This document shows positions 21,499-39,174 of a DNA stretch of 64,000 nucleotides, piece after piece. The translations under genes were made by a program, and so were the position numbers. The notes below the pieces were generated by a model. That model made no database searches and was not told where the DNA came from. It was given only the letters and a program-made list of their open reading frames with translations. Origin of the DNA: Actinoplanes derwentensis (GTDB taxonomy: Bacteria; Actinomycetota; Actinomycetes; Mycobacteriales; Micromonosporaceae); NCBI RefSeq assembly GCF_900104725.1, contig NZ_LT629758.1, forward strand, positions 5,842,501 to 5,906,500, given 5' to 3'. The stretch's first letter is position 1, and every line of letters begins with the position of its first letter.

Positions 21499-21672
21499 GT
21501 GAACACCGAAGCCGCGACCATGGACGATCTGGTCGAGCCGCTGGCCGTCATCAAGCAGACCCCGCTGCGGGAGATCCGGGCCGAACACGCCGACCGAGTG
21601 GTGCGCCGGATCGTGGACAAGGAGTCCCTCCTCCGGCGGCTGGATGTCGCCGCCTTCCAGTCCGCACATTGA
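21499..21672 (+). CDS. fxsA: FxSxx-COOH precursor peptide (FxsA)
   Basis: A 57-residue peptide starting at GTG 21499, with GGAG 6 nt upstream. It ends in FQSAH at the carboxyl terminus, an exact F-x-S-x-x-COOH motif. The leader is Leu/Glu/Arg-rich (PLAVIKQTPLREIRAEHAD, then RRIVDKESLLRRLDVAAF), as expected for recognition by a radical SAM enzyme. Its TGA overlaps the ATG of the radical SAM gene (TGATG), so precursor and enzyme are translationally coupled. Family knowledge: these peptides sit beside FxsB-type radical SAM/SPASM enzymes that are annotated as cyclophane-forming. The exact crosslink here is not known from sequence; Phe53 and Ser55 are candidates. Confidence 0.9.
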   Translation: MNTEAATMDDLVEPLAVIKQTPLREIRAEHADRVVRRIVDKESLLRRLDVAAFQSAH

Positions 21673-23978
21673 TGCCCGGCTCGACGGATGGTGCGGCTGG
21701 TGGAGCCCATCCGCTGAGCCAGTTCGTTCTGAAGGTGCACGGCCGGTGCGACCTGGCATGCGACCACTGCTATGTCTACGAGCACGCCGATCAGAGCTGG
21801 CGGACGAAACCCCGGATGATGTCCTTGGACGTCGCCGGGGCTGCCGCGCGCCGGATCGCCGAGCACGCGGCGAGCTGGGAGCTGCCGCACGTGCGGCTGG
21901 TTCTGCACGGTGGTGAGCCGCTGCTGCTCGGGCCGGATCGGATGGACGCTCTCATCACGCGGGTGCGGGCGCCGATCGAGGCGGTCACCCGGCTCTCCCT
22001 GACGATGCAGACCAACGGTGTACGCCTCGGCACCGAGATGTGTGACGTGCTGAAGCGTCACGGGGTGCGGGTGGGTGTCTCTCTCGACGGCGATCGGGAC
22101 GCCAACGACAGGCACCGCCGGTTCGCGACCGGTGCGGGCAGTTTCGACCAGGTGCGCGCGGCACTGTCGTTGCTGCGCCGGCCGGATTACCGGGAACTCT
22201 ACGCCGGAATCCTCTGCACCGTGGACGTTCGCAACTCCCCGGAGCAGGTTTACCGGGCGCTGCTCGCCGAGCGCCCGCCGAACGTCGATTTCCTGCTCCC
22301 CCACGCCACCTGGGACAGTCCGCCGTACCGGCCGGAGGGGCAGCCCACCCCGTACGCGGACTGGTTCTCGGTGATCCACCGGCTCTGGCTCGCCGACGGG
22401 CAGCCGATGCGGATCCGCCTCTTCGAGGGTCTGTACTCCACCGCACGTGGCGGCCCCAGCGGCAGTGAGCAGCTCGGCGCCGACACCGTAGACCTGGCCG
22501 TGATCGAGACCGACGGGCGCTACGAGCAGGCCGATTCGGTGAAGACCGCCTACGACGGCGCCCCGGCGACCGGCCTGAGCGTGCTCACCGCCACCGTCGA
22601 CGACGTCTCCCGGCTGCAGCCGATCGCCGCGCGGCAGCACAGCATCGACAACCTGAACCCGGTCTGCCGGTCGTGCCCGGTGGTCCGGCAGTGCGCCGGT
22701 GGTCTCTACGCGCACCGGTTCCGCACCGGCCACGGGTTCGCCAACCCGTCGGTCTTCTGCCCGGACCTGCGTGTCCTGATCGAGCGAACCGACAAGGAGG
22801 TCAGCGTGCACAGCGCGAACACCGAACCGGTACGGACCGGGCCTACCGGGCTGATCAGCGACATCGCGTCGGGTTTCGGCGACGAGGTGACGATCGGGTG
22901 GCTGGCCGAGCAGCAACGGTCGGTCACCCGGGCGCTGATCGCCGCGACGGTCGAGCAGCACGGCACGACCGACGGTTGGGAGACGCTCGCCTGGGTGGAG
23001 GGTGAGCGCCCGGATGCGGTCCGCCGGGTGCTGGCCCATCCGTACGCCCGGGCCTGGGCGGTCGGCATGCTCCGCACCGGCGATCCGGCCGGGATGCCTT
23101 ACCTGGGCGGTCTCGCGGCGGCGGCGGCCGTGCACGCGAACCTTCAGGTGGAGACCGGGGTACGGATCGACCGGGGTGTGGTCACGCTGCCCACGGTCGG
23201 CACGCTCTACTGGCCTCAGACCGTGACCGCCGACGCCCGGATCACCATGGACCAGGGGAAACTGTGGCTCACCGGCCCCGGCGACCAGACGCTCGCGGTC
23301 GATCTCGCCGAGCCGGGTTCCACCTGGCAGCCGACCCGGTGGATCGCGCGGGACGGCTGGAGTGTGCGGATCGAGGACGGTGACCCGGCTCGGGACTGTC
23401 ACGGCTGGACCCCCGCGGGCCGGCTCGACGATCGTGCCGCCGGCCGGTGGCACGAGTCGCTGACCGCGGCATGGGATCTGGTCGACACCGAGCTGCCCGG
23501 GTACGCGCCGGCCCTGCGCGCCGGACTTCAGGTGATCATGCCGTTGGAGCCGGATCCCGCCGGGAAGCAGCGGGCGGCCACCGCGATGGACGCGTTCGGC
23601 TCGATGGCCGCCGCCTTGACCGGCCCGGCCGAGCTGGCGGTGCTGTTGGTGCACGAGTTCCAGCACGCCAAGCTGGGGGCGCTCCTGGACCTTTACGACT
23701 TGCATGTCCGGGACTCGGACGAGCTGGTGGCGGTGGGCTGGAAACCCGAGCCGAGGCCGGTGGAGGCCGCCTTGCAGGGTGTTTACGCGCATGCCGCGGT
23801 GGCCGACGTGTGGCGGCTGCGTTCCGGCACCGATCCGCGCGCCGCCGAGCTGTACTCGATGTACCACCGCTGGACCACCGACGCGATCGCCGCACTGCGG
23901 CGCACGGAGGCGCTGACCCCGCTGGGGACGGACTTCGTCGACCGGCTGGCCGGCACCGTGGAGTCCTGGGGATCGTGA
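21672..23978 (+). CDS. fxsB: FxsB: radical SAM/SPASM peptide maturase fused to a HExxH domain
   Basis: A protein of 768 residues. The radical SAM cluster motif is CDLACDHC (Cys26, Cys30, Cys33) with the glycine motif LHGGEPLLLG near 78. A SPASM-type auxiliary cluster region has CRSCPVVRQC (Cys332, Cys335, Cys341) and a further Cys363 in SVFCPD. The C-terminal half (about 380-768) is a second domain with HEFQH at 661-665, the HExxH motif of the peptide-modification domain fused or adjacent to FxsB proteins. It should install a C-C crosslink on FxsA, with the HExxH domain perhaps adding a second modification. The start overlaps the fxsA stop and the end overlaps the next gene by GTGA. Confidence 0.93.
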   Translation: MPGSTDGAAGGAHPLSQFVLKVHGRCDLACDHCYVYEHADQSWRTKPRMMSLDVAGAAARRIAEHAASWELPHVRLVLHGGEPLLLGPDRMDALITRVRAPIEAVTRLSLTMQTNGVRLGTEMCDVLKRHGVRVGVSLDGDRDANDRHRRFATGAGSFDQVRAALSLLRRPDYRELYAGILCTVDVRNSPEQVYRALLAERPPNVDFLLPHATWDSPPYRPEGQPTPYADWFSVIHRLWLADGQPMRIRLFEGLYSTARGGPSGSEQLGADTVDLAVIETDGRYEQADSVKTAYDGAPATGLSVLTATVDDVSRLQPIAARQHSIDNLNPVCRSCPVVRQCAGGLYAHRFRTGHGFANPSVFCPDLRVLIERTDKEVSVHSANTEPVRTGPTGLISDIASGFGDEVTIGWLAEQQRSVTRALIAATVEQHGTTDGWETLAWVEGERPDAVRRVLAHPYARAWAVGMLRTGDPAGMPYLGGLAAAAAVHANLQVETGVRIDRGVVTLPTVGTLYWPQTVTADARITMDQGKLWLTGPGDQTLAVDLAEPGSTWQPTRWIARDGWSVRIEDGDPARDCHGWTPAGRLDDRAAGRWHESLTAAWDLVDTELPGYAPALRAGLQVIMPLEPDPAGKQRAATAMDAFGSMAAALTGPAELAVLLVHEFQHAKLGALLDLYDLHVRDSDELVAVGWKPEPRPVEAALQGVYAHAAVADVWRLRSGTDPRAAELYSMYHRWTTDAIAALRRTEALTPLGTDFVDRLAGTVESWGS

Positions 23979-24790
23979 CCGGCGAGGCTGTCACGCACGA
24001 CGATCTCGTCGCCGGCCTGACCGCTCTGGGCCTCCCCGAGGGGGGCCTCCTGCTGGTGCACTGCTCGATGCGCCGGATCGGCCGGGTGGACGGTGGCGCG
24101 GCGACCCTGCTCGCCGCGCTGCGTACGGTGGGCGGCCCGGCGGTCACGATCGTGGTGCCGGCCCAGACGCCGGACAATTCGCTGACCAGTCCGGTGTACC
24201 GCACGGCCACGGCCGGGATGACCGGCGCCGAACGCGCTCGCTACGTCGCCGGCATGCCGGGCTTCGATCCGGACCACACACCGTCGTACGGCGTCGGGGT
24301 CTTCGCCGAGCAGATCCGGTCACATCCGGGGGCGCTGCGCAGCCGGCACCCGCAGACGTCCTTCGCCGCGCTGGGGCCGGAGGCCGCCGCCGTGGTGGCC
24401 GTGCACGATCTGGACTGTCATCTCGGCGAGCGTTCCCCCCTCGGTACGCTCTACCGACGTCACGCCATGATCCTGATGCTCGGTGCCGGGATGGCGAAAT
24501 GCACGGCACTGCATCTCGCCGAATATCGTCTCGGCGGCCCGGTACCGACCATGGATTACTCGTGCTTCATGTCCAAAAACGGTCAACGAATCCCGCTGCG
24601 ATTCAGCGCCAGGAAATTGAACGACAGCGATTTCCAGGAAGCCGGAAACGACATTCTCCGGCATTCCTGGGCGATTACCGGCCAGGTGGGCGGCGCGGAA
24701 GCCCATCTCCTGCCACTCGCCCCCGCGGTGGACCAGGCCCGCAGGTGGTTCAGCACGAGCCGCCGAATCAACAACGAAATCAATCAATGA
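23975..24790 (+). CDS. AAC(3)-family N-acetyltransferase of the Fxs operon
   Basis: A protein of 271 residues of the aminoglycoside N(3)-acetyltransferase fold. Family landmarks visible are GGLLLVHCSMRRIG, VVPAQTPDNS, HTPSYGVGVFAEQIR, SRHPQTSFAALGP, SPLGTLYRR and GAGMAKCTALHLAEYRLG, with the His of TALHLAE as the candidate catalytic residue. The GTG start overlaps the fxsB stop, so it is part of the peptide operon rather than a free resistance gene. I infer acyl transfer from CoA onto the modified peptide or a partner. Actual aminoglycoside activity is not implied. Confidence 0.85.
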   Translation: MTGEAVTHDDLVAGLTALGLPEGGLLLVHCSMRRIGRVDGGAATLLAALRTVGGPAVTIVVPAQTPDNSLTSPVYRTATAGMTGAERARYVAGMPGFDPDHTPSYGVGVFAEQIRSHPGALRSRHPQTSFAALGPEAAAVVAVHDLDCHLGERSPLGTLYRRHAMILMLGAGMAKCTALHLAEYRLGGPVPTMDYSCFMSKNGQRIPLRFSARKLNDSDFQEAGNDILRHSWAITGQVGGAEAHLLPLAPAVDQARRWFSTSRRINNEINQ

Positions 24791-24880
24791 CAGCGTGAAG
24801 TCGGGCCACTACTCTGAATCTCCGGACAGGCGGCAGGAAACGGGGATCACAGTGGACGTGCGCGTCGAGGGGAAAAGATC

Positions 24881-25906
24881 GTGCCCACGCCCGATCTCTA
24901 TTTCGCGCTGATTCACGCGCGCACCTCGATCCCGAACCAATGGGTCGACGCCTTCTATCATCGGCTCGACCTGGAGGTGCAGAGCCGGGCCGCGCCGGCC
25001 CCCGGCCTGCGGGTGGGGTCGCTCTACTTCCCGACGGCCGGTGAGGTCCGCCGGGCGCTCGACGCCGGGCTCCCCCGGGTGCGGGTGCTGGTGCCGCTCT
25101 ACACCCGGGAGTTCCTGCACGACCCGCCGCCCGACTTCGGCGACCGGCTGCACCGTCTGGAGGATCCGGCCGAGCAGCCCTTCGTGCATCCGGTGCTCTG
25201 GGAGCCGCACCTGCCGGCCCGCCGGGTGAACGGGCTCGCCCAGGCCGTCTCGCTGGGCGACTCGGTCCAGGAGTACCTGGACTGCGGCATGGCCTCGATC
25301 TGCCGGCTCAACGCCTTCACCCGGCAACTGCGGCGCATCGTCGAGGAGCTGGCCGACCGGCTGGTCGTCGCGGCCGAGGCCCCGGACCGGACGCCCGCGT
25401 GGATGCTGAGCCGGGCGAGACCGCCGGTGCCGCAGAAGCCGCTCGCGCCGAGTTTCCTGATCATCGTGGTCCGGGCGGACTGGCGGGACCCCGACTGGTC
25501 GCCGTACGGCACCGGGCCGGTGACCGAGCGGGCCCGGGACGCCGCTCAGCGGCTCTCCCTGCTGACCGAGATCCGGACCGGGCCGGCGACCGACGGTCTG
25601 CAGGAGTCCGCCGGGGTTCTGCTGCTCGACTCCGGCATGCTCGACGACCCGCGGGACCGGCGGGCGGCCGAGGAGTTCCTTCGCAAGGTGCCGCCGTGGA
25701 TGACGGTGGTGATGGTGATCGGGACGGATCACGCCGACCGGGCTCACGAACTGGCCGCCGAGGCGCGGGCGATGGCACCGAACGGTGTGCAGATCGCCCG
25801 GGACGGCCGGGAGTTCCAACGGGCCGTCGACGAGGCGGTCTCCAAGGCCCGCCGCAACTTCCTTCGCAGCCGGCAGACCAGAAGACCGTGGGAGGACTCG
25901 CGATGA
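24881..25906 (+). CDS. fxsC: TIR-like protein FxsC
   Basis: A protein of 341 residues. The N-terminal about 170 residues resemble the TIR-like fold (LYFALIHARTS...QWVDAFYHRL, RVRVLVPLYTREFL). The C-terminal half has a second alpha/beta unit (FLIIVVRADWRDPDWSPYGTG) and ends in the helical FxsC tail with AVSKARRNFLRSR. GTG 24881 follows GGGGAAAA. Its stop overlaps the fxsT start (ATGA). FxsC proteins accompany FxSxx-COOH peptides; their role is unproven. A signalling or NAD-related function by analogy with TIR domains is speculative, because I cannot confirm a catalytic Glu. Confidence 0.88.
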   Translation: MPTPDLYFALIHARTSIPNQWVDAFYHRLDLEVQSRAAPAPGLRVGSLYFPTAGEVRRALDAGLPRVRVLVPLYTREFLHDPPPDFGDRLHRLEDPAEQPFVHPVLWEPHLPARRVNGLAQAVSLGDSVQEYLDCGMASICRLNAFTRQLRRIVEELADRLVVAAEAPDRTPAWMLSRARPPVPQKPLAPSFLIIVVRADWRDPDWSPYGTGPVTERARDAAQRLSLLTEIRTGPATDGLQESAGVLLLDSGMLDDPRDRRAAEEFLRKVPPWMTVVMVIGTDHADRAHELAAEARAMAPNGVQIARDGREFQRAVDEAVSKARRNFLRSRQTRRPWEDSR

Positions 25907-28900
25907 CCAGCGACCGCGACGGGCAGGTCGTCACGTTCTATTCGTACAAGGGTGGGACCGGCCGGACCATGGCGCTGGCCAACGTCGCCTGGATCCTGGC
26001 GGCGAACGGATACCGGGTGCTCACGATCGACTGGGATCTCGAATCACCCGGGCTGCACCGCTTCTTCCAGCCCTTCCTGGATCCGCGTTTCCTGGCCAGC
26101 ACCAGCGGCGTGGTCGACATGATCAATCTGTACGAGTGGGACTCGTCCAAACCGGAGTGGGATCCGGGGCAGGTCGGTGGTTACGCCAGTGTCCAGCAGC
26201 ACTCGTTCTCGCTGGACTGGGACCATTTCCCGGTGGGCGGCACGCTCGACTTCCTCTCCGCGGGCCGGCAGAACCCGGTGTACGAAGGTGTGCTCAGCAA
26301 CATCAACTGGGACGACTTCTACCAGAACGGTGACGGCAACGGCGGCCGCTTCTTCGACGCGATGCGCGCCGACATGAAGGCCCGGTACGACTTCACCCTG
26401 ATCGACAGCCAGACCGGGAACAGCGACATCGCCGGGATCTGCACCAACCATCTGCCGGACGTGCTGGTGGACTGTTTCACCTTCAGCGGCCAGGGCATCG
26501 AGGGCGCGGCCCGGATGGCCCGGCAGCTGCACAGTTCCCGGGACATCCGGGTGCTGCCGGTGCCGATGCGGGTGGATCCGGCCGAGAAGCACAAAGCCGA
26601 GATCGGGCGGACCGTGGCGATGCGGGAGTTCGCCGAGCTGCCGGCCGGACTCGACGCCGGCCGGCGCCGGGCGTACTGGCACGGTGTCGAGGTCCCCTAC
26701 CAGGCGTATTACGCGTACGAGGAGACCCTGGCGACGTTCGGGGACGCTCCGGGCGCCCCGGGAACGCTGCTGAGCGCGTACGAGGCGCTCGCGGCACAGA
26801 TCACCGAGGACCGGGTCACCTCGATGCCGCTGATCAATCCGAGTCTGCGCGCGCAGTTCGTCACCCGGTTCGAGCGCAAGCCGTTCTCCGAGGCCCACAC
26901 GGTGCTGCTCTCCGGCGCCGGGGTGGACCAGGTGTGGCTGGAGTGGGCGCGACACATCCTGACCAACGGTGGACTCGAGGTCGTGCCCCCGCCCGAGGAG
27001 AGCGGAGACGCCGGGGAGGCGCAGCTGGTGAACGCCCAGCACGTCAAGATCATCTCTCGGGCGGAGAGCGCCGGCCAGCATGCCGGCGGCGAGAGCCCCG
27101 AGCTCCGGGCGGTCTACACCGCGGACATCACCCCGTGGAGCCGGGTGCCGTCGGTGCAGTCGGCGTTCATCGCCGGATGTGACGCCGCCACCGCGGCCAC
27201 CCGGATCCTCGAACTCGTCGGCCGGCCCGCCAGCGACCTGGACGTCGTGCTGAGCGGCACCCCGCGATACCCCGGTGACGAGCCGGAACTGGTGGTGAAC
27301 CTCCCGGCCCGCAACGCCCGGTTCACCGGCCGGGAGACCAACCTGCTGACCCTCCGCGAGCAGTTGCGCTCCGGGTCGGCGGTGGTCCTGTTCGGCACCC
27401 AGGCGGTCGCGCTCCAGGGCATGGGCGGGGTCGGCAAGACCCAGCTGGCGCTGGAGTACGCGTACCGCTATCGCGCCGCCTACGACGTGGTGGCGTGGCT
27501 GAACGCCGACACGGAGGAGAGTCTGCAGGGCTCCCTGCGCGACCTGGGTGCCCGGCTGAACCTGCACTCCGACCAGACCGGCCCGGAGTACGCCCGCGCG
27601 GTCGTGCAGGAACTCAGCCGGGGCCGGCGGCGCTGGCTGCTGATCCTGGACAACGCGGACGAGCCGGACGCGGTGCGCACCTATCTCCCGCACGGCGGGC
27701 ACGTTCTGATCACGTCCCGGAACAAGGCCTGGGGTGAGCAGACCCGGCCGTTCGAGGTCGACGTCTTCACCCGCGACGAGAGCATCGATCACCTGGTGCA
27801 ACGGGTCAACGAGATCGACCGGGCGGATGCCGACCGCGTCGCCGAGCAGCTCGCCGATCTGCCGATCGCGGTCGCGGCGGCCGCCGCGTGGCTCGACGAG
27901 ACGCACACCTCCGTCGACGAATACCTCCGGCTCATCCAGGAGGAAGGGCCGAGTGCGGTGCTCACCGCGGTGACCGACCGGCCGATCGCGCGCACCTGGG
28001 ATCTGTCGCTGACCCGGCTGCGCGAGCGGGATCCGGCGGCCTACCGGCTCTTCCAGCTGTGCAGTGTGCTGGCTCCGGAGATCTCCCTCGATCTGATCTT
28101 CAGTGATCAGATGGCGGAGTACCTCAAACCGTATAAACCGGCGCTCTCCGAACGGATGGTGCGTGGCTCGCTGATCCAGCAGATCAACCGGCTGGCCCTG
28201 TCCCGGCTGGACCAGCGGCCCGCCTCGTCCGGCGACGGCGACCGCAGCGGGCGGGTCCTGATCCACCGGGTGGTGCAGAACGTCGTCCGCGACCGGATGA
28301 CCGAGGAGGAACTCGCCCAGGCCCGGCTGGAGGTGCATCAGGTGCTGGCGAAGGCCCGGCCGGAGGACGGTGACGTCACCGACCCGGAGCACTGGCCCCG
28401 GTTCCGGATGCTCTGGCCGCACCTGGACGCCTCGGACGCCGTCTACAGCACCGACGAGTCGGTGCGCCAGCTGCTCATCGACCGGATCCGCTACTACTAC
28501 GTCCAGGCCGAGCCGATCACCGGCCGCAGCCGGGCCGAACGGATCGCCGAGATCTGGCGGCAGCAGCTGGCCGAGACCACCGACCCGGAGCAGGCGGCCA
28601 CCCTGCGCCTGCAGTTGCTGCAGCTCCGCTTCAACCTGGCCAACCTGATTCGTGACCTGGGTGAGTTCGAACCCTCCCGGCAGATCGACGAGGAGGTCCT
28701 GGCCGAGCAGATGCGCCTGCTCGGGCCGGAGCATCCGCACACCCTGATGACGCGGGGCAGTTACGCGGCCGATCTGCGGGGCCTGGGCCGTTACCCGGAG
28801 GCCCTCGAACTCGACATCGACACCTACCAGACCTGGCAGGACACGTACGGCGAGGACTACCCGCGCACGTTGGCGGCCCGCAACAACCTCGCCGTGTCGT

Positions 28901-29820
28901 ACCGGCTGATGGGCCTGTTCCGGGAGGCCGGCGAGCACGACAAGGAGGCCTGGGAACGGCGCCGGGCGATGGACGGCGACACCAACATCTGGGCGCTCGG
29001 CACCGCCGGCTGCCTGGCCCGGGACATGCGCGACGCCGGGGACTTCGGGCGCTCCGCCACGCTGCTGAAACAGACCCTCGAATACCTGATCGACACTCGC
29101 GGCCCGGACTCCCGGTCGACCCTGACCACCAAGTCGAACTACGCGGTCTCGCTGCGCAGTCTCGGCCGGATCGGCGAGGCACTTCAACTGCATCAGGAGG
29201 CGTACGCCCGGCTCCTCGAAGTCTTCGGCCCGGAGAATCCGGAGACGGTGAGCTGCCGGTTCAGTCTCGCCCTCACGCTGCTCAACTCCGGCCAGGGCGA
29301 TCAGGCGGTGGCCGAACTCCTCGACGTGCACGAGTTCTGGCAGCGCCGGCTCGGCGACCGGCACCCGTACACCCTGGTCTGCAAGACCGACCTGGCCATC
29401 GCGGAACGCCAGCTCGGCCGGTTCGGTGACGCCCGCGACTGGATCCGGCCGACGGTGGAGATCTTCTCCGAGGTGCTGGGACCGGAACACCCGTACACGC
29501 TCTCCGGTCTGATGAATCTCGCGATCTGCGAGACCGAACCGTCCGAGGACGACCGCACCGGCCCGGCCGCGGCCCGGGAGACGCTGCTGAGCATCGCCGC
29601 GGGCATCCGCCGGGTGTTCGGGCCGGACCACCCGAACACGTTCCGGTTCGAGGCGAACCTCGCCCTCGTCGAGGAGACGCTGGGTGTGGTGTCCGCCGAC
29701 GACCGTCTCGCGGCGCTGCGGGAACGGATCGTCCTCAAGCTCGGCGAGACCCATCCGCTGGTGGACGGGCTGGACCGCCGCCGCTACCTGTACCGGGTCA
29801 TCGACCCGCACCAGTTCTAG
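25903..29820 (+). CDS. fxsT: FxsT: ParA/MinD-like and NB-ARC ATPase with TPR repeats (FxSxx-COOH system)
   Basis: A protein of 1305 residues with several modules. Residues 1-260 are a ParA/MinD-like domain with the deviant P-loop YSYKGGTGRTMAL and the following LTIDWDLESPG. A linker of about 200 residues includes a second TIR-like stretch (EAHTVLLSGAGVDQVWLEWA). An NB-ARC ATPase has P-loop QGMGGVGKTQLALEYA near 505, Walker B WLLILDNADEP and GHVLITSRNK. TPR repeats run from about 900 to 1250, with repeated GPEHPHTL/GPENPETV/GPEHPYTL motifs. This is a STAND-type sensor architecture fused to a SIMIBI ATPase. The start is coupled to fxsC. I infer a sensor or scaffold for the Fxs peptide. Confidence 0.9.
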   Translation: MTSDRDGQVVTFYSYKGGTGRTMALANVAWILAANGYRVLTIDWDLESPGLHRFFQPFLDPRFLASTSGVVDMINLYEWDSSKPEWDPGQVGGYASVQQHSFSLDWDHFPVGGTLDFLSAGRQNPVYEGVLSNINWDDFYQNGDGNGGRFFDAMRADMKARYDFTLIDSQTGNSDIAGICTNHLPDVLVDCFTFSGQGIEGAARMARQLHSSRDIRVLPVPMRVDPAEKHKAEIGRTVAMREFAELPAGLDAGRRRAYWHGVEVPYQAYYAYEETLATFGDAPGAPGTLLSAYEALAAQITEDRVTSMPLINPSLRAQFVTRFERKPFSEAHTVLLSGAGVDQVWLEWARHILTNGGLEVVPPPEESGDAGEAQLVNAQHVKIISRAESAGQHAGGESPELRAVYTADITPWSRVPSVQSAFIAGCDAATAATRILELVGRPASDLDVVLSGTPRYPGDEPELVVNLPARNARFTGRETNLLTLREQLRSGSAVVLFGTQAVALQGMGGVGKTQLALEYAYRYRAAYDVVAWLNADTEESLQGSLRDLGARLNLHSDQTGPEYARAVVQELSRGRRRWLLILDNADEPDAVRTYLPHGGHVLITSRNKAWGEQTRPFEVDVFTRDESIDHLVQRVNEIDRADADRVAEQLADLPIAVAAAAAWLDETHTSVDEYLRLIQEEGPSAVLTAVTDRPIARTWDLSLTRLRERDPAAYRLFQLCSVLAPEISLDLIFSDQMAEYLKPYKPALSERMVRGSLIQQINRLALSRLDQRPASSGDGDRSGRVLIHRVVQNVVRDRMTEEELAQARLEVHQVLAKARPEDGDVTDPEHWPRFRMLWPHLDASDAVYSTDESVRQLLIDRIRYYYVQAEPITGRSRAERIAEIWRQQLAETTDPEQAATLRLQLLQLRFNLANLIRDLGEFEPSRQIDEEVLAEQMRLLGPEHPHTLMTRGSYAADLRGLGRYPEALELDIDTYQTWQDTYGEDYPRTLAARNNLAVSYRLMGLFREAGEHDKEAWERRRAMDGDTNIWALGTAGCLARDMRDAGDFGRSATLLKQTLEYLIDTRGPDSRSTLTTKSNYAVSLRSLGRIGEALQLHQEAYARLLEVFGPENPETVSCRFSLALTLLNSGQGDQAVAELLDVHEFWQRRLGDRHPYTLVCKTDLAIAERQLGRFGDARDWIRPTVEIFSEVLGPEHPYTLSGLMNLAICETEPSEDDRTGPAAARETLLSIAAGIRRVFGPDHPNTFRFEANLALVEETLGVVSADDRLAALRERIVLKLGETHPLVDGLDRRRYLYRVIDPHQF

Positions 29821-29823
29821 GCC

Positions 29824-30630
29824 ATGGCGGACTCGGAGAACACCATCCCGTCGCTGGTCGCGTCGGCCTGGCGGACCGCGCCACCGGTGCTGCGCCGGTT
29901 CGCGTACTGGGTGTGGAGCATCGGTTTCGTGGCGGTGACCCTGTCGGTCATCGCGGACGCCCGGAACTGGTGGAACGGCCTCCAGTTCACCACCAACATC
30001 ATCGCCGAGCTGGTCTGCGGCATGGTCGCACTGCCGGTCGCCCTGGTGATCATCGCCAGGCTGGCCGAGTACCAGGTGAAGGAGCTGGAGCAGGCCCGGC
30101 TGAAGACGCGATACGCGGCGGCGCTGCAACAGATGACCGGTTCGGCCCAGATCACCAACGACTATCTCCAGGAGCTGGTGCAGGAGGTGGCGTCCAGCAC
30201 CAACACCTTCGTGGCGGCCGCCTGGGTGGTGGACGGCTCGCTCACCGACCCGGAGGGCGCGCTCGAATCGGCCCACCTGTTGCAGGCCCAGATGGAGAGC
30301 CAGCAGTGGCTCTTCTACGAGCGGGTGATGATCCCGCTGCGGATCGAGGGCAACCAACTCCGGGTGCTGCTCAGCGAGCGTGTCAACAACGGCGAACAGA
30401 CCTCCGAACGGCTCCGCTTCGAACGACTGTGGCACAACCTGGAGTCCGCGCTGCGGCACCAGAAGGTGACCATGGCGGCCGGGTACCAGGAGTTCGCCCG
30501 GGGTGTGCCCACCGCGCACCGGGCGGTCCGCCTGCGCGACGCCGCGCTCAATCACCTGCGCAGCGTCGACCAGTTGCAGCGGTACTGCGCCGAACTGGCC
30601 GCGTTCGCCACCCCGGCTCTGGAGGGTTAG
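29824..30630 (+). CDS. Two-helix membrane protein with long cytosolic helical domain, Fxs-associated
   Basis: A protein of 268 residues starting 4 nt after the fxsT stop, so it belongs to the same operon. Two membrane helices are seen near 24-44 (FAYWVWSIGFVAVTLSVIA) and 58-80 (ELVCGMVALPVALVII). The rest is a soluble, probably coiled-coil region (EYQVKELEQARLKTRYAAALQQM) with a later VMIPLRIEGNQLRVLLSERV stretch. I do not recognise the family. Its place suggests it anchors the FxsT/FxsC machinery at the membrane. It converges with the alpha/beta hydrolase gene, overlapping by 4 nt. Confidence 0.7.
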   Translation: MADSENTIPSLVASAWRTAPPVLRRFAYWVWSIGFVAVTLSVIADARNWWNGLQFTTNIIAELVCGMVALPVALVIIARLAEYQVKELEQARLKTRYAAALQQMTGSAQITNDYLQELVQEVASSTNTFVAAAWVVDGSLTDPEGALESAHLLQAQMESQQWLFYERVMIPLRIEGNQLRVLLSERVNNGEQTSERLRFERLWHNLESALRHQKVTMAAGYQEFARGVPTAHRAVRLRDAALNHLRSVDQLQRYCAELAAFATPALEG

Positions 30631-31505
30631 GCGGTCAGCCAGGCCAGGATCGGGGGCAGCGCCTCCATCGCACCGAAGTGCGCCGCGTCGTGCTGCACGT
30701 GCACTTCCGAGCGGGGGATCCGCTGCGCCAGCCACCGGCTGTGGCTGGCCGGCGAGAACGTGTCGTGTGCGCCGTGCCAGAGCCGGACCGGCGGCACGAT
30801 GGTGTCGAGGGCGAACCCCCACTCGCGGCGGAACGCCTGGATGTCGTCGAGCCAGCCGTACGGACCGACGCGCAGCGCGTCGGCGTAACTCTTCGCCAGC
30901 AGCCGCTGGAACAGCACACTCCGGGTGAACAGCAGGTCTGGCCCGGACATCTGCGCCCGCAGCTCGGCCAGCAGGCTTTCCGGGTCGTCGGCGGTCTGCT
31001 CGGCCAGAGCACGCAGTTCGTGCATGTGGTCGGCGGTGCCCCGATCGGCGGTGACGTGTTTCCGGGCGTTCGCGTCGGCCATGCCCTCGTACCAGTTGAG
31101 GTCGGCGGCGTTCCGGGGCGCCAGCCCGACCAGGACCGCGGCCCGTTCGACCCGGTGCGGCAGCACGGCGGCGCAGGCGAGCGCGTGCGGGCCACCACCG
31201 GACCGGCCGACCACGGCGAACCGGTCGAGACGCAGCCGGTCGGCGATCGCACGGACGTCGGCGGCGGCATCGACCACGCTGCGGTCCGGCAGGCGGGTGG
31301 AGCCGCCGTAACCGGGGCGGTCGTAGCTGATCAGCCGGATCCCCTGCCGGTAGAGCATGCTGGGCCGGGGCCGTGGACCGGTGCTCGAACCGGGGGTGCC
31401 GTGTAGCAGGAACACCGGTGAACCGTGCGCCGCACCGGACACCTCGACCGTGAGAACCCGGGCACCGACGCCGACCTCGAAACGTGTTGCCAAGGCGATC
31501 CTCAT
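30627..31505 (-). CDS. Alpha/beta hydrolase
   Basis: A protein of 292 residues. The oxyanion HGTPGSS motif lies near 35, the nucleophile elbow is VGRSGGGPHAL (Ser in GRSGG), the acid is in WHGAHDTFSP and the His is in HDAAHFGAME. A lid region of about 100 residues sits between strands 6 and 7. There is no signal peptide, so it is cytosolic. The substrate is unknown; haloperoxidase- or epoxide-hydrolase-like members of this group act on small esters or epoxides. The gene stands alone, converging with the Fxs operon. Confidence 0.88.
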   Translation of the reverse strand: MRIALATRFEVGVGARVLTVEVSGAAHGSPVFLLHGTPGSSTGPRPRPSMLYRQGIRLISYDRPGYGGSTRLPDRSVVDAAADVRAIADRLRLDRFAVVGRSGGGPHALACAAVLPHRVERAAVLVGLAPRNAADLNWYEGMADANARKHVTADRGTADHMHELRALAEQTADDPESLLAELRAQMSGPDLLFTRSVLFQRLLAKSYADALRVGPYGWLDDIQAFRREWGFALDTIVPPVRLWHGAHDTFSPASHSRWLAQRIPRSEVHVQHDAAHFGAMEALPPILAWLTA

Positions 31506-33198: not shown

Positions 33199-36153
33199 TC
33201 AGGACTCCAGCACCCGTTCCATCGCTGCCCGGGACCGCCGGGTCAGACGCAGGTACCGGTCCACGAACTCACCCGGGTCGCCGCCGCCCAGCAGGAGCAC
33301 CGCGCCCGCCAGCTCGGCCCCGTGCCGGGGAAGCTGGTCGGTGGGCCGGCCGCGAACCAGGGTGAGGGCGTTGCGCACCTGGGCGGCGAGGGTCCACCCG
33401 GCCTCCATCTCGGCCGCGTCCGAGGCGCTGATCAGCCCGTCGGCCGCCGCCGAGGCGAGAGCCTCCAGGGTCCGGGTCTTTCGAAGATCCGAGCGGGCGT
33501 ACGCGTTGCGCAGTTGAGTGAGCTGCACCGCCCACTCCACGTCGGAGAGCCCGCCCCGGCCCAGTTTGGTGTGCGTGTTCGGGTCCGCACCGCGGGGCAG
33601 CCGCTCGGTCTCCACCCGGGCCTTGATCCGCCGGATCTCGATCACCTGTTCGCGAGTGAGGCCACCGTCCGGGTAGCGGGAACCGTCGGCCATGGTCTCG
33701 AACCGGCGGCCCAGTTCGACGTCGCCACAGACGAACCGGGCCCGCAGCAGCGCCTGCGCCTCCCACACCTTCGACCAGCGGTCGTAGTACTGCCGGTAGG
33801 CCTGCAGGCTGCGCACCAGCGGGCCCTGCCGGCCTTCCGGGCGCAGGTCGGCGTCCACACCGAGGGCCGGGTCGGGGGCGGGCGCGTTGAGCAGCCGGCG
33901 CATCTCCTCGGCGACGGCGTGCGCGGCCGCGCTGGCCTCCCCTTCCGGACAGCCCTCCGGTTTCTCGTAGACGAAGAGCACGTCGGCGTCGGACGGGTAA
34001 CTCATCTCGTAACCGCCGAGCCGGCCCATGCCGATCACGGCGAACCGCAGGCCGTCCGGGCCGGGTTTGGTGCGGCGGGCGATCCGCAGCGCCGCGTTCA
34101 GGGTGGCGTCGGTGACGTCGGAGAGGGCGACACCGATCGCGTCCACGGTCAGCGGCCGGTCCGGGGCCAGTTCGCCACCCTGGCTCAGGATGTCGGCGCA
34201 GGCGATCCGGAACAGTTCCCGGCGGCGCAGCGCCCGGACCGCGGCGATCGCCTTGACCGGGTCGGTGTGCCGGTCCCCGGCCGCGGCGAACCCGTCCAGC
34301 AGCGACTCCCGCGCGCGCGGCTGGAGTTCGGCGTCGTCGGCGAGCAGGCGCAGCGCCTCCGGGTCCCGAGTGAGCAGGTCGGTGGCGTACCGGGAGAGGC
34401 TCAGCACCCGGGCCAGCCGGCGGGCCACCGGTCCCCCGTCGCGCAGCAGCCTTAGATACCACGGGGTGCTGCCCAGCTTGTCCGAGACGGCCCGGTAGTT
34501 GAGCAGGCCCCGATCCGGTTCCGGGGCGTCGGCGAAGTCCTGCAGCAGCATCGGCAACAGGGTGCGCTGGATCGCCGCGGTCCGGGTCACCCCACCGGTC
34601 AGCGCCTCCAGATGCCGCAGTGCCCCGGCCGCGTCGGCGAACCCGAGGATCTCCAGGCGCCGGCGGGCCGACTCCGGGACCATCCGCAGCTGTTCGGCGG
34701 GCACCCGGGCGACCGCTTCGAGCAGCGGCTGGTAGAGAAGTTTCACGTGCAGGCGCCGGACCCCGGCGGCATGACCGACCCAGTCGGAACGGAACGCCTC
34801 GACGGCGTCCCGTCCGGGCAGCGCGGTGTAGCCGAGTGCCGCCGCGAGCCAGCGCAGCCCGGCCGGATCGTCGGGGACCGTGTGGGTGCGCTTGAGCTGC
34901 TGCAGTTGCAGGCGGTGCTCGACGCCGCGCAGGAAGCGGTAACCCCGTACCAGCGTCTCGCCGTCCTGCCGTCCGACATAACCGCCGGCGACCAGCGCGC
35001 GCAACGCCGGGATCGTCCCCGGGTCCCGCAGCGTCTCGTCCACCCGGCCGTGCACGAGCTGCAACAACTGCACCGCGAACTCGATGTCCCGCAGCCCGCC
35101 GGAACCGCGTTTGATCTCGCGGTCCTGTTCCTTCTTCGGGATGTTGTCGATGATCCGGCGGCGCATGTCGCGCACGTCGGCGACCGCTTCGGGCCGTTCC
35201 GCCGCGTGCCAGACCAGCGGCGCCAGATCGGCGATCCACTCCAGGGCCAGCGCCAGGTCACCGGCGGCCGGGCGGGCCTTGAGCAACGCCTGGAACTCCC
35301 AGGTACGGGCCCAGCGCCGGTAGTACGCCTGGTGACTGGCGAGGGTGCGGACCAGCGGGCCACGGCTGCCCTCGGGGCGCAACGCCGCGTCGACCGGCCA
35401 GGCCACCATGCCGCAGATCTCCATCAGCCGGGCCGCGACGGTGGTGCCCGCACTCAGGTCCTCGTCCCCGGCGGCCACGAAGATCACGTCCACGTCGGAG
35501 ACGTAGTTCAGCTCGTTGCCACCGCACTTGCCCATCGCCACGACCGCGAGACGAGGCTCCGGCGTCGCTGCCGGGAGGGCGGCGACGGCTATCGCGTACG
35601 CCGCCGCCAGGGTCTCGTCGGCGAGCCGGGACAGGGCCGCCATGGTGGGCTCCAGGCCGCGGCCCGCCGTCAGGTCGGCGGCGACGATGCGCAACAGCGA
35701 GATCCGGTACGCCGTACGCAAAGCCGGCACGGTGAGCTGCTCGAAGTCGGCCAGCCCGCCCTCGGCCTCCGGCGGCAGCCCGGTCCGGCCGGTGGCCAGC
35801 GACCGCCAGTGTTCCGGGTTGGCCACCAGATGGTCACCGAGCGCCGACGACGCCCCGAGCACGGCGAGGAACCGCCGCCGCAGCCCGTGATCCTCGGCGA
35901 GTCCGCCGAGCAGTTCCGCGGCCTTCGTCTCGTCACCACGCCCGGCCGACTCGACGATCCGGTGCAGCTGCCGCAGCGCCAGGTTCGGGTCGGCGGCCTT
36001 GGAGAGCGCGTCGAGCAGCCCGGCGGCGTGCTCGTCCACCGGGACCTGCGCGTCGACGTCCCAGAGCCGCAGACCGCCGGGTCCGAGCAGGTCGCTGGCG
36101 CGGGCGCCGTTGTCGGCGAACCCGTACCGCGCGAGGCGGGTGGGCCGCGTCAT
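33199..36153 (-). CDS. glnE: Bifunctional glutamine synthetase adenylyltransferase/deadenylase
   Basis: A protein of 984 residues, the normal length. It adds AMP to, and removes it from, the loop tyrosine of GlnA1 in response to nitrogen status. Two nucleotidyltransferase domains are visible: an N-terminal removase site MGKCGGNELNYVSDVDVIFV near 209-228 and a C-terminal adenylylase site GMGRLGGYEMSYPSDADV near 708-725. Each is followed by a GlnE helical domain, with IKRGSGGLRDIEFAVQLLQL and LGRGGLSDVEWAVQLTQL patterns. ATG 36153 overlaps the stop of the upstream amidotransferase gene (TGATG). In mycobacteria glnE lies between glnA1 and glnA2; here glnA1 is 30 kb away. Confidence 0.97.
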   Translation of the reverse strand: MTRPTRLARYGFADNGARASDLLGPGGLRLWDVDAQVPVDEHAAGLLDALSKAADPNLALRQLHRIVESAGRGDETKAAELLGGLAEDHGLRRRFLAVLGASSALGDHLVANPEHWRSLATGRTGLPPEAEGGLADFEQLTVPALRTAYRISLLRIVAADLTAGRGLEPTMAALSRLADETLAAAYAIAVAALPAATPEPRLAVVAMGKCGGNELNYVSDVDVIFVAAGDEDLSAGTTVAARLMEICGMVAWPVDAALRPEGSRGPLVRTLASHQAYYRRWARTWEFQALLKARPAAGDLALALEWIADLAPLVWHAAERPEAVADVRDMRRRIIDNIPKKEQDREIKRGSGGLRDIEFAVQLLQLVHGRVDETLRDPGTIPALRALVAGGYVGRQDGETLVRGYRFLRGVEHRLQLQQLKRTHTVPDDPAGLRWLAAALGYTALPGRDAVEAFRSDWVGHAAGVRRLHVKLLYQPLLEAVARVPAEQLRMVPESARRRLEILGFADAAGALRHLEALTGGVTRTAAIQRTLLPMLLQDFADAPEPDRGLLNYRAVSDKLGSTPWYLRLLRDGGPVARRLARVLSLSRYATDLLTRDPEALRLLADDAELQPRARESLLDGFAAAGDRHTDPVKAIAAVRALRRRELFRIACADILSQGGELAPDRPLTVDAIGVALSDVTDATLNAALRIARRTKPGPDGLRFAVIGMGRLGGYEMSYPSDADVLFVYEKPEGCPEGEASAAAHAVAEEMRRLLNAPAPDPALGVDADLRPEGRQGPLVRSLQAYRQYYDRWSKVWEAQALLRARFVCGDVELGRRFETMADGSRYPDGGLTREQVIEIRRIKARVETERLPRGADPNTHTKLGRGGLSDVEWAVQLTQLRNAYARSDLRKTRTLEALASAAADGLISASDAAEMEAGWTLAAQVRNALTLVRGRPTDQLPRHGAELAGAVLLLGGGDPGEFVDRYLRLTRRSRAAMERVLES

Positions 36154-36935
36154 CACTGCCCCAGGATCGGCAGCGTCCGGCCGGTGGGGTTCGGGATGTC
36201 GGCGTCCGGCAGCGTGCCCAGGGCCAGCTCGGCGAACCGCTGCGCGAACGGCTGCCACACCTCCTCCACGTCGGCGAGCGCCGCCGAGGTGGCCAGCACC
36301 ACGGCCTCCGGGTCGTAGTCCAGCTCGGCCAGCGTGTCGGCGTCCGCACCCGCCCAGTCGGCGATCATCGCGGCGTCGCACTCGATGTGGAACTGGAGTC
36401 CCCAGGCCCGGTCACCGATCCGGAACGCCTGGACCGGGAACCGCGACGAGGCGGCGAGCAGCACCGCGTTCGCCGGCAGCTCGGTGATCTCGTCGTGGTG
36501 CCACTGGAGCACGTCGGGCAGCAGCGGCACCCACTTGAACAGCGGGTCGTCGTCGGCGGTGTCCCGTTTGGCGACCAGGCCGGGGCCGATCTCCGGGCCG
36601 CCCTCGCTGAGCTGGACCAGGCCGCCGTTCGCCCGGGCCAGCAGCTGGCCGCCGAGGCAGACACCGAGGGTCGGCACCCGGTGCCGGACCGCCTTGCGCA
36701 GCAGCCCCTCCAGCGCCGGGAACCAGGACGCGCCGGGTGCGCCCGTCTCGTCGGGATAGGCGTGCTGATCACCTCCCAGCACGATCAGCGCCAGGAAGCC
36801 CTCCGGGGTCTCCGGAAGCTCGTCCCCGGCGTGCGGCCGGAGAACGGTCAGCTCCAGACCGGCCTCGGTCAGCCATTCCCCGAGCCGCCGGGGGTCGTCA
36901 CTCGGGTCGTTCTCGATGACTAGTGCGGTACCCAC
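36153..36935 (-). CDS. Class I glutamine amidotransferase-like protein
   Basis: A protein of 260 residues with one GATase1 domain. The catalytic Cys is in LGVCLGGQLLA (near 92-102), and the triad His-x-Glu is in GLQFHIECDA (near 184-192). The helical tail ends in GRTLPILGQ. There is no synthetase domain, so it resembles stand-alone GMP-synthase-like amidotransferases. It is coupled to glnE through TGATG, linking it to nitrogen metabolism. The acceptor substrate is unknown. GTG 36935 (GTALVIEND) is the start. Confidence 0.88.
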   Translation of the reverse strand: MGTALVIENDPSDDPRRLGEWLTEAGLELTVLRPHAGDELPETPEGFLALIVLGGDQHAYPDETGAPGASWFPALEGLLRKAVRHRVPTLGVCLGGQLLARANGGLVQLSEGGPEIGPGLVAKRDTADDDPLFKWVPLLPDVLQWHHDEITELPANAVLLAASSRFPVQAFRIGDRAWGLQFHIECDAAMIADWAGADADTLAELDYDPEAVVLATSAALADVEEVWQPFAQRFAELALGTLPDADIPNPTGRTLPILGQ

Positions 36936-36963
36936 ACGTCGAGGCTATCGGAGCCGGCCGACT

Positions 36964-37407
36964 TCAGCGGGCGGGCGTCCAGCGGGCGATCACCTCATCG
37001 TCGTCCACCTCGCCGGTCTCCACGAAGCCCATCGACAGGTAGAGGTCCCGGGCCGCGGTGTTGGCCGGCTGGTAACTCAGGGCCACGTCGGGTGTTCCGG
37101 GTTCGGCGATCAGCCGTTCCCGCAGCTGGCGGACCACCTCGCGGCCGATGCCCTGCCGCTGGTGCTTCCCGTCCACGACCACCCCGCCGATCCAGCGGCT
37201 GCCGTCGTCGTCCAGGCCCCACATCACGAAGCCGGCCACCTCGCCGCCCCGCACCACGGCGAGCGGGTTCCAGGTGTCGCCGTAGTTGCACAGGCAGAGG
37301 TAGTAGGCCACCTCCGCGACGAAGTCCCGCTGCTCGGGGTGCACGGTGAGGGCTGCGCAGTCACGCCAGTTGGCGGCGGTGACGGGTTCGAGCCGGATGT
37401 CGGTCAT
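36964..37407 (-). CDS. GNAT family N-acetyltransferase
   Basis: A protein of 147 residues. The acetyl-CoA loop is VVDGKHQRQGIGREVVRQL, strand 4 is AGFVMWGLDDDG and the C-terminal motif B is NTAARDLYLSMGFVETGEV. It resembles SpeG/diamine-acetyltransferase-like GNATs (DIRLEPVTAANWRDCAAL...QRDFVAEVAYYL). ATG 37407 is chosen; an in-frame extension upstream reads through the divergent VOC gene leader. The substrate is unproven. Confidence 0.85.
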   Translation of the reverse strand: MTDIRLEPVTAANWRDCAALTVHPEQRDFVAEVAYYLCLCNYGDTWNPLAVVRGGEVAGFVMWGLDDDGSRWIGGVVVDGKHQRQGIGREVVRQLRERLIAEPGTPDVALSYQPANTAARDLYLSMGFVETGEVDDDEVIARWTPAR

Positions 37408-37504
37408 TCGGGCGATCTTGCCAAACGACCCGGAAACACCGACGGGACGCTGTCGCCGGGGGCGAGCAGAGTCAGGGCTGTTCCCGACATCAAGGAGAGA
37501 CGAC

Positions 37505-37864
37505 ATGGCTGCGATCAACGGCATCGGCTGGTTCCAGATCGGCACCGACCAGCCGCAGGAGGCCGAGCGGTTCTACGGCGGGCTGTTCGGCTGGACCTTC
37601 AGCGAGGCCGCCCCGAACTACCGGTTCGTCAGCACCCCGGACCCGGACGGCCCGCAGGGCGGTATCGCCGACACCAGCGGCGGCGGCCCGAACCACGCGG
37701 TCTTCTCGGTGCTGGTCGCCGACGTCGACGCGACCTGCGCGGCGGCCGAGGCGGCCGGCGGAAAGGTGCTGGTCAACCGGACCGCCGGCGAGGGGACCCG
37801 GATCGCCCACCTGCTCGACCCGGCCGGCAACCAGTTCCAGATCTACCAACCGCCGGCTAGCTGA
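37505..37864 (+). CDS. VOC (glyoxalase/bleomycin-resistance-like) family protein
   Basis: A protein of 119 residues with a beta-alpha-beta-beta-beta fold and family motifs IGWFQIGTDQPQEAERFYGGLFGW and HLLDPAGNQFQIYQPP. AAGGAGAG lies about 6 nt upstream of ATG 37505. Its 3' end overlaps the convergent WYL regulator by 8 bp; VOC and HTH/WYL genes often sit together in actinobacteria, and the regulator may control it. The ligand is unknown. Confidence 0.88.
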   Translation: MAAINGIGWFQIGTDQPQEAERFYGGLFGWTFSEAAPNYRFVSTPDPDGPQGGIADTSGGGPNHAVFSVLVADVDATCAAAEAAGGKVLVNRTAGEGTRIAHLLDPAGNQFQIYQPPAS

Positions 37865-38549
37865 GCGTCAACGGCCGCAGGCGGTGGGGGAGGTCGAGGT
37901 CGACCTCCGCCAGCGTCCGCGGCCGGACCGTCTCCCGGGTCGGAATCACCGAGGCGATCCGGTCCGGGCGGAACACCCGCACCGACTCGCGCAACCGGCA
38001 CCAGGCGATCAGATACCACCGGCCGCGGGCCCCGACGTAACCCAGCGGCTCGATGTCGCGTGAGGTGACCCGGCCGTGCCGGTCGGCGTAACCGATCCGG
38101 AGCACGCAACCCACCGGGAGCGCGCCACCGGACAGCCGGGGCAGCTCGGCCGGCACCGTGTCACCGGTGAGCTGGATCCGGCCGGCCAGGTCGCGGGCCT
38201 CGGCCACGTCCTCCGGGCGCATCGCCGCGAGCAGTTTACGCAGCGCGCTCGCCGCCGGATGACGGAACGGCGTGCCCTCCATGCTCCGCAGGGCGAGCGC
38301 CATCGCGACCGCTTCCTCCGGAGTCAGGTTGACCGGCGGCAGGGTGTGCGCCCGGTCCAGGCAGTAACCACCGGTGCGGCCGGTCTCCGCGTAGATCGGG
38401 GTACCAGACTGCTGTAACGCCGAGATGTCCCGCTCGACGGTGCGCAGACTCACCTCGAAACGGCCGGCGAGCCAGCGGGCGCTGCGCGGCCGCGGGGCCA
38501 CCGCCCGTAACTCCTCGACGAGGGCGTAGAGGCGATCGGTGCGGTTCAC
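37857..38549 (-). CDS. HTH/WYL-domain transcriptional regulator
   Basis: A protein of 230 residues. The N-terminal winged helix (SARWLAGRFEVSLRTVERDISALQQSG, 23-50) is followed by the DeoR-like linker YAETGRTGGYCLD. The C-terminal WYL domain carries EPLGYVGARGRWYLIAWCRL with its core Trp-Tyr-Leu. Arg residues in VRVFRPDRIASV fit the ligand-binding pattern. It is convergent with the VOC gene. GTG 38549 is the start. Confidence 0.9.
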   Translation of the reverse strand: MNRTDRLYALVEELRAVAPRPRSARWLAGRFEVSLRTVERDISALQQSGTPIYAETGRTGGYCLDRAHTLPPVNLTPEEAVAMALALRSMEGTPFRHPAASALRKLLAAMRPEDVAEARDLAGRIQLTGDTVPAELPRLSGGALPVGCVLRIGYADRHGRVTSRDIEPLGYVGARGRWYLIAWCRLRESVRVFRPDRIASVIPTRETVRPRTLAEVDLDLPHRLRPLTLS

Positions 38550-38583
38550 CCCCGGGACGCTAGCCCGGGGGTACGACGTTTTC

Positions 38584-39009
38584 TTACGCGATACAGGCGC
38601 AGACGATGATCGCCGCCCCGAAGTGGGAGGCCGCGCTGACCAGTGCTCCCGGGTGTTTCTCCTGGGTGCAGATGACCTCGCCGAGCTTGCCCGGGGTCAG
38701 CCAGTCCAGCACCAGGAAGGCCAGGCCCATGATCGCGATGCCGATCAGGCCGAACAGCACCGTCGACACCAGGCCCTGACCGAACGAGTCCCAGGTCGTG
38801 AAGATCGAGGTGAAGACGATCGCCGCGATACCGAGCTGGTTCGCCGACAGCAGCAGTGCGGCGTTCGGGTTCTTCTCGACCCAGATCAGGTCGCGCAGTT
38901 TGCCCGGGGTGAGCAGGTCGACCAGAACGAATCCGACCGCCATCAGCCCGATGCCGACCGCCCCGAACACTATGCTGCGCCCGGCGCCCTCGAGTAGATC
39001 CTCCAGCAC
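38584..39009 (-). CDS. DUF350 family membrane protein
   Basis: A protein of 141 residues with two tandem DUF350 halves, each two membrane helices followed by a short charged segment (VLVDLLTPGKLRDLIWVEKNPNAA and VLDWLTPGKLGEVICTQEKHPGA). The tail ends in VCACIA. GTG 39009 is preceded by GAGGGAGAAG. The function of DUF350 is unknown; members are often found near envelope-stress genes. The ECF sigma factor gene is divergent, 165 bp away. Confidence 0.85.
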   Translation of the reverse strand: MLEDLLEGAGRSIVFGAVGIGLMAVGFVLVDLLTPGKLRDLIWVEKNPNAALLLSANQLGIAAIVFTSIFTTWDSFGQGLVSTVLFGLIGIAIMGLAFLVLDWLTPGKLGEVICTQEKHPGALVSAASHFGAAIIVCACIA

Positions 39010-39174
39010 GGCTTCTCCCTCATCATGTGTAGTCCGTCCAAGACCGTATCGGAGCCGATCTACCGCGTCGATCGGACGGCGGGACCCGCGGTGACGATTT
39101 TCCGTCAGGTGGCGCTGTACCAGGGGAGCCCGCATGCGGTGTGAGGGCGCAACGAGGGGGTCGGTGGTCTTCGG

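Follow-up and report, generated by a model that had tools for sequence, protein, structure and literature searches.

An FXS (FxSxx-COOH) system of Actinoplanes derwentensis with a predicted maturation module and a candidate FxsC-FxsT-hydrolase signalling module

A standalone FxSxx system with an AP-ATPase (families TIGR04268, TIGR04269, NF040586 and NF040588) has been described, with the prediction that the processed peptide acts as a toxin or as a signal amplifying an AP-ATPase conflict system (PMC7159879, section 24). A locus of this class, the FXS (FxSxx-COOH) system, is present in the soil bacterium Actinoplanes derwentensis as six genes on the + strand at positions 21499-30630 of the stretch of 64,000 nucleotides (nt) analysed here, the window. 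It shares with the described system the peptide precursor, the enzyme with radical S-adenosylmethionine (SAM) and SPASM domains, the HExxH domain, an AP-ATPase protein with tetratricopeptide repeats (TPR) and a MinD/ParA-like domain, and a TIR-like protein. The hydrolase, the AAC(3)-fold enzyme and the protein with two transmembrane segments (two-TM) reported below are not mentioned in that section, where the HExxH domain is read as a peptidase, and the FxsC of the window differs in lacking the TIR loop. The conflict systems built on SLATT, SLOG and TIR proteins, as portrayed in PMC7159879, have in common with our locus a STAND (signal transduction ATPase with numerous domains) protein, TIR-like and two-TM proteins, and SLATT and SLOG are found beside its relatives; however, the window has neither of them and its two-TM protein matches no SLATT model. 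Pairing of alpha/beta hydrolases with caspase-type and GAP1 systems is also noted there.

The best explanation of the locus is a standalone FXS system made of a maturation module and an FxsC-FxsT-hydrolase signalling module, with a convergent alpha/beta hydrolase that, judging from its linkage, appears to be an unlisted partner of the system and to accompany FxsT. The first module would feed the second, which would work as an intracellular signalling device resembling NOD-like receptors (NLR) and endowed with exchangeable effectors; this is a real possibility, which we put forward tentatively. While FXS has already been named and partly described, what is new within the reach of our search is the partnership of the hydrolase with FxsT, the AAC copies linked to FXS, the two-TM family together with the accompanying loss of the FxsC TIR loop, and the natural FxAxx precursors; among the literature matches listed (titles and abstract openings), no paper ties the hydrolase or the acyltransferase to FXS. 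The hydrolase, the acyltransferase and the two-TM gene extend the conflict-system picture of PMC7159879. The features of the locus are as follows:

21499..21672, + strand: FxsA precursor, 57 amino acids, GTG start, C-terminus AAFQSAH (TIGR04268, 32.3 bits, cut-off 28)
21672..23978, + strand: FxsBH, 768 amino acids, with radical SAM, SPASM and HExxH in one protein (TIGR04269, 524 bits; TIGR04267, 131 bits)
23975..24790, + strand: AAC(3)-fold acyltransferase, probable tailoring enzyme (PF02522, 230 bits)
24881..25906, + strand: FxsC, TIR-like, catalytic loop including the usual Glu deleted (NF040588, 60.7 bits; TIGR04276, 28.8 bits; both below cut-off)
25903..29820, + strand: FxsT, with KGGTGR ParA-like domain, NB-ARC and TPRs (NF040586, 920 bits; NF047398, 130 bits; PF00931, 40 bits)
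29824..30630, + strand: two-TM helical protein of a lineage-restricted family, candidate effector (19 family proteins; helical model)
30627..31505, - strand: alpha/beta hydrolase, convergent with the operon and FXS-linked (PF00561, 81 bits; linkage across loci)

A preliminary description of this stretch had listed FxsA, FxsB, an AAC(3)-like protein, FxsC, FxsT and a membrane protein, with stop/start overlaps at several junctions, and all six were found at the coordinates it gave. Read from the sequence, FxsA and FxsB overlap by 1 nt, FxsB and AAC by 4 nt and FxsC and FxsT by 4 nt, and the remaining spacings are 90 nt (AAC to FxsC) and 3 nt (FxsT to the two-TM gene). Its class name, its FQSAH ending of FxsA and its three FxsB domains were likewise correct, since FxsA, FxsB (TIGR04269 cut-off, 370), the HExxH domain (TIGR04267 cut-off, 40) and FxsT (cut-offs of 300 for NF040586 and 90 for the KGGVGR model NF047398) all score above the curated thresholds, and on these profile matches the assignment to the FXS family is strong. 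The term "complete RiPP operon" (RiPP, ribosomally synthesized and post-translationally modified peptide) stands only in part. The hydrolase, a companion of the system in most loci, has a stop that overlaps that of the two-TM gene by 4 nt and falls just beyond the six genes, so that "complete" was wrong, and "RiPP operon" names half of the system, leaving out the FxsC-FxsT-hydrolase unit, of which FxsT and the hydrolase are also seen with no FxsB nearby. The statement that products and purpose are poorly known is fair, although a conflict-system role had already been predicted in section 24 of PMC7159879.

Gene content was compared in two samples. From a scan of genome contigs, the best 80 of 335 confirmed stretches were kept, giving 81 loci with the window; their genes were predicted with a home-made codon-usage caller, followed by all-against-all clustering. 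In the second sample, 150 genomes of the family were searched for FxsB, the hydrolase and AAC. The preliminary description had proposed such a comparison, and the order did prove to be conserved over the 81 loci, the usual one being FxsA-FxsBH-(AAC)-(second TIR)-FxsC-FxsT, with the genes in brackets optional, and then the hydrolase on the opposite strand, the partner that had been overlooked. FxsC was present in 76 loci, FxsT in 74, the hydrolase in 67, AAC in 46, SLATT in 19, a second TIR in 11, and SLOG and the two-TM protein in eight each. A different arrangement was seen in L054, L057, L068 and L083, with FxsT upstream of FxsA/FxsBH rather than downstream and no hydrolase found in the fetched stretch (shortened in L054). 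The family genomes yielded 142 FxsB matches, and 83 of the 150 had one above cut-off, fused to HExxH in 30 of these as judged by frame length. The same measure defined 34 matches as fused, among them G213:C78, the one FxsB so listed that lacks the hydrolase, which on reading is actually unfused. The genome of A. derwentensis itself has three further FxsB-like loci outside the window, L111-L113 (452 bits for G000:C1:2399002, 463 bits for 1136871 and, below cut-off, 297 bits for 796588); the HExxH gene is separate in L111, and a hydrolase of the FXS-linked class was not called in any of the three.

The hydrolase faces FxsT from the opposite strand in all 67 loci in which it was called, with its catalytic S102, D248 and H276 kept in every one. 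The gap between the last operon gene (FxsT or two-TM) and the hydrolase has a median of 6 nt and lies between -60 and +100 nt in 59 of the 67; the genes overlap in 19, and in six about 1.0-1.3 kilobases (kb) intervene. No hydrolase was called in 14 loci, one of which (L065) was positive with phmmer and eight of which (L038, L043, L054, L061, L067, L069, L071, L078) have little downstream sequence or break off within FxsT; outside this set, the hydrolase of L121 was also missed by the caller and was placed by coordinate. In the family genomes, the 71 hydrolase rows analysed comprised all 52 matches of at least 281 bits and the next 19, the remaining lower rows being left out. Among the 52 close homologues, 47 have an FxsB at most 20 kb away, in 40 cases with the two genes on opposite strands, and the other five adjoin an FxsT (L131-L135). 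Three of these five (L131, L133, L135) combine FxsT and hydrolase with FxsB absent from the fetched 20 kb and present elsewhere in the genome, L131 and L133 with TIR-like genes as well, and the stretches of L132 and L134 reach contig ends. FxsT was found in all 19 hydrolase regions fetched outside the first set (L114-L125, L129-L135), as the immediate neighbour in 15 (13 convergent, and L116 and L133 on the same strand), in one operon with the hydrolase in three (L114, L115, L124) and three genes away in L130. In four neighbourhoods of lower hydrolase matches (L136-L139) FxsT was not found; the FxsT of L135 has another lower match (147 bits) within a few kb. The hydrolase of G120 is a partial match of 190.8 bits, and the second hydrolase of G246 is 18.7 kb away from FxsB.

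These data bear on whether the hydrolase might be a mere frequent neighbour outside the system, as its consistent opposite-strand position (67 of 67 called loci) and the abundance of alpha/beta hydrolases could suggest. Close homologues are moreover lacking in 40 of the 83 genomes with FxsB, and the hydrolase therefore belongs to only part of the FxsB world. Against this, the genes past the hydrolase change from genus to genus; the score drops from 281 to 208 bits at the next match, setting the FXS-linked copies apart; and in L114, L115 and L124 the hydrolase is the first gene of a same-strand operon with TIR, FxsC, FxsT, FxsA, FxsB and HExxH (in L114 and L115, FxsA was taken as the 67-amino-acid frame preceding FxsB). 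In addition, FxsB is present in 43 of the 44 genomes with a close hydrolase (Fisher p 3e-13, uncorrected for relatedness), the exception being G154, a fragmented genome in which a contig of 3.5 kb holds FxsC, TIR, AAC and HExxH pieces. A chance neighbourhood is thus very improbable in our judgement.

The association with FxsT agrees with the way in which the proteins diverge. Pairwise distances, compared as raw values, correlated best between hydrolase and FxsT (0.913), FxsC and FxsT (0.904) and hydrolase and FxsC (0.898), less so between hydrolase and FxsBH (0.866) and FxsT and FxsBH (0.839), and least with AAC (0.593 for FxsBH, 0.613 for FxsT and 0.774 for the hydrolase). FxsT itself has the features of a STAND/NB-ARC protein (PF00931, cut-off 23.5; TPR_12 and TPR_10 repeats), and its K16, R21, K512 and D583 are kept in 76 of 76 sequences, K512 and D583 being the evidence for Walker A and B motifs.

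With respect to the putative maturation module, a small FxsA-like frame precedes FxsB in all 81 loci and ends in FxSxx in 77, while about eight of 1262 other called genes have an F.S.. ending (manual reading of a list of 25); two extra F.S.. frames, in L034 and L064, were discounted as spurious. The preliminary description had named FxsA homologues without the tail in close relatives as contrary evidence; none was seen, the seven nearest loci (L009-L015) all keeping F[QN]SA[HP]. The four remaining tails, in the distant loci L031, L034, L064 and L075, read FQASI, with Ala at the expected Ser, so that natural FxAxx precursors exist. In three of these loci (L031, L034, L064) the C-terminus of FxsBH is AFQSQ followed by a single residue, which is probably a coincidence; a precursor fused to its maturase was considered for these F.S.. 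endings and dropped, separate FQASI FxsA genes being present there.

FxsBH resembles the fused radical SAM-HExxH enzymes that form cyclophanes, such as ChlB, over both of its domains: residues 15-372 align with ChlB (9gm3) at 250 bits and residues 397-766 with an HExxH-domain structure (22nu) at 188 bits. Its motifs are intact in a single protein (CxxxCxxC at 26-33, HEFQH at 661-665), and all 80 relatives with called genes retain H661, E662 and H665. In contrast to those enzymes, the FXS substrate carries its FxSxx tail at the very C-terminus and the enzyme is linked to FxsT. PMC12636437 presents the class as known for cyclophane formation and alpha-ketoglutarate-dependent beta-hydroxylation, and reports hydroxylation by HExxH enzymes of this type and backbone cleavage by others, so that the domain might also have a cleaving role. 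The leader-peptidase reading of the HExxH domain in PMC7159879 appears less likely because the domain passes the alpha-ketoglutarate beta-hydroxylase model and aligns with the structure of that family. FxsBH would most likely cross-link Phe53 of FxsA to Ser55, giving a three-residue cyclophane, and beta-hydroxylate a residue near this cross-link.

The AAC(3)-fold enzyme may add an optional tailoring step, as an acyltransferase of the maturation module. It belongs to the PF02522 fold family, like FrbF, YokD and the aminoglycoside AAC(3) enzymes, with conserved His and Glu/Asp residues (H125, H149 and H180 in 46 of 46; E183 in 42, replaced by Asp in the other four), and FrbF (3sma, 131 bits) and YokD are its nearest solved structures. 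Unlike aminoglycoside AAC(3) enzymes, it stays below the cut-off of the curated AAC_3 model NF033082 (145 bits against 270), so it falls outside that family, and 25 of 26 close copies (at least 213 bits) lie near an FxsB; a role as resistance gene was set aside for these two reasons. The AAC rows analysed in the 150 genomes were 73, the 26 high ones and 47 lower, the remaining lower rows being left out; 14 of the 47 are near an FxsB, each unfused. In a tree of 63 rows, six taken as non-FXS (L111 among those so grouped, despite an FxsB 7.7 kb away) form one clade, and its sister group consists of six AACs of unfused FXS systems, a category that includes the fused L130 and the contig fragment L145. 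The FxsA tail does not predict whether AAC is present, FNSSI being found with and without it. AAC is on the operon strand in 42 of 46 loci; in the other four, all from Streptomyces (L028, L030, L036, L045), it is located behind the hydrolase on the opposite strand, which indicates that genes move between the two facing arms.

In TIR NAD hydrolases, a CxxEW motif after strand C forms the loop with the catalytic Glu. FxsC of the window is in the right place but matches its models partially (cut-offs of 130 for NF040588 and 55 for TIGR04276), and this loop with its Glu is deleted in it and in six relatives. Of 58 FxsC rows with neither a second TIR nor a two-TM gene, 53 have the canonical motif, as do one of 11 with a second TIR (a protein with a clear WC..E in its own loop in nine of 11) and none of the eight with a two-TM gene, seven being deleted and one degenerate (L015, assigned manually despite an aligned Glu). 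The model predicted for FxsC from an alignment of 20 of 77 rows (predicted local distance difference test, pLDDT, 80; predicted template modelling score, pTM, 0.63) gave no match at E 0.001 in a fold search, most rows of which cover the C-terminal half.

The two-TM family comprises 19 proteins including that of the window (E at most 0.001, among the best 8000 word-sharing candidates scored from 5.8 billion sequences). Of the 67 genomes of the genus, 11 carry it, 2-70 nt from the hydrolase in ten and 1.6 kb away in G243. The protein has hydrophobic stretches at about 25-46 and 52-85 followed by helices, and its helical model (pLDDT 84, pTM 0.63) was based on 18 rows, the window and 17 of the 18 other homologues, P0002 being left out. 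No Pfam family was found above cut-off, and hence no SLATT model among these profiles (no fold comparison with SLATT was made); since Foldseek also gave no match at E 0.001 (best row E 0.05, to a designed bundle), SLATT or another known fold was rejected for it. Because the two-TM gene occurs only in loci with a lost FxsC TIR loop, an effector swap is suggested, in which the two-TM protein would stand in for the function of the loop. The two-TM loci are the eight nearest by FxsBH, seven of them grouping together in the AAC tree, and, looking like one clade, would therefore represent a single coincidence of loss and gain rather than repeated evolution. In most relatives the effector candidate would be a TIR enzyme, either FxsC or the second TIR protein, while in the Actinoplanes clade of the window the two-TM protein may have been added as the likely effector, with the TIR loop gone.

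Relatives also have partners of the kind found in conflict systems. A gene with SLATT_3 and SLATT_1 and a SLOG-like gene, the match of the latter being below the Pfam cut-offs, are found beside FXS chiefly in Streptosporangiaceae, and loci of the Kitasatospora type have SLATT behind the hydrolase. The 14 genomes chosen for SLATT at FXS, which represent 14 of the 19 SLATT loci, have 17 occurrences of SLATT_3 in all; 11 of these genomes have just one, at a place fitting the FXS locus (matched by eye from coordinates); three of eight FXS genomes without SLATT at the locus have SLATT_3 elsewhere and five have none.

How the two modules might be connected can be approached through their partners. 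The five gene families present in at least 20 of the 81 loci include no exporter or leader peptidase, which favours an internal ligand and speaks against matured FxsA being secreted as an antibiotic or signal, with FxsC, FxsT, the two-TM protein and the hydrolase serving regulation, export or self-protection. Cyclophane peptides of other classes, darobactin and its kin, are antibacterial, and the two-TM protein might serve in immunity or export; nevertheless, the conserved partners are a STAND ATPase and TIR-like proteins, with SLATT and SLOG in relatives, and we regard an exported product as unlikely. Actinomycete STAND ATPases with TPRs are often regulatory, and FxsA and FxsT could instead control growth or sporulation of the producer, in line with the CRP-like regulators linked to some FxSxx systems (PMC7159879, section 24). 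The patchy distribution of FxsB in the family, together with the SLATT and SLOG partners and the effector change, which point to conflict, make a developmental or stress regulator similarly doubtful.

According to the tentative reading of a maturation module feeding NLR-like signalling, the state of the peptide, or whatever disturbs it, would switch FxsT, which would then drive the effector, and the hydrolase would probably strip the peptide or a small signal of an ester or acyl mark, thereby resetting or triggering FxsT. A bolder version, to which we give little weight, would be an NLR-type immune system making its own ligand: a cyclophane peptide acylated by the acyltransferase (writer) and de-acylated by the hydrolase (eraser) would set an NB-ARC switch firing interchangeable TIR, SLATT or two-TM effectors, with the two-TM family having taken over from the TIR enzyme. 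If the immune reading were true, a RiPP would serve as the internal ligand of an NLR-like receptor.

Several observations weigh against the two-module reading. Shared ancestry contributes to the distance correlations. The hydrolase is missing from five loci that have ample flanking sequence (L020, L057, L068, L080, L083), and a second FxsT in G246 is about 12 kb from the nearest one. The fold matches of FxsC are weak and mixed, with TIR, receiver and flavodoxin-like proteins among the top rows; its loop is non-canonical in L016-L019 and L084, in which neither a second TIR nor a two-TM gene was called, and the coincidence of two-TM gene and loop loss, confined to one clade, counts as one event. 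PADLOC gave partial hits only, with pVip matching the radical SAM part at 35 bits and PDC-M28B the P-loop of FxsT at 64 bits. The FxsT-linked hydrolase, the tight FxsC-FxsT-hydrolase unit and the lineage with a membrane protein and no TIR loop make the role of the FXS peptide genetically testable.

Elsewhere in the window, a large BTAD/AAA/TPR regulator of the Streptomyces antibiotic regulatory protein type is encoded on the + strand at 10373-13318, about 8 kb upstream of the operon. Downstream of the hydrolase, positions 33199-42056 hold genes of nitrogen metabolism, namely those for the GlnE adenylyltransferase, a protein with a class-I glutamine amidotransferase domain and glutamine synthetase. 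Between 46426 and 51655 (about 5 kb), the codon model calls a single short gene, at 48755-48949, and this part may be of atypical composition or non-coding.

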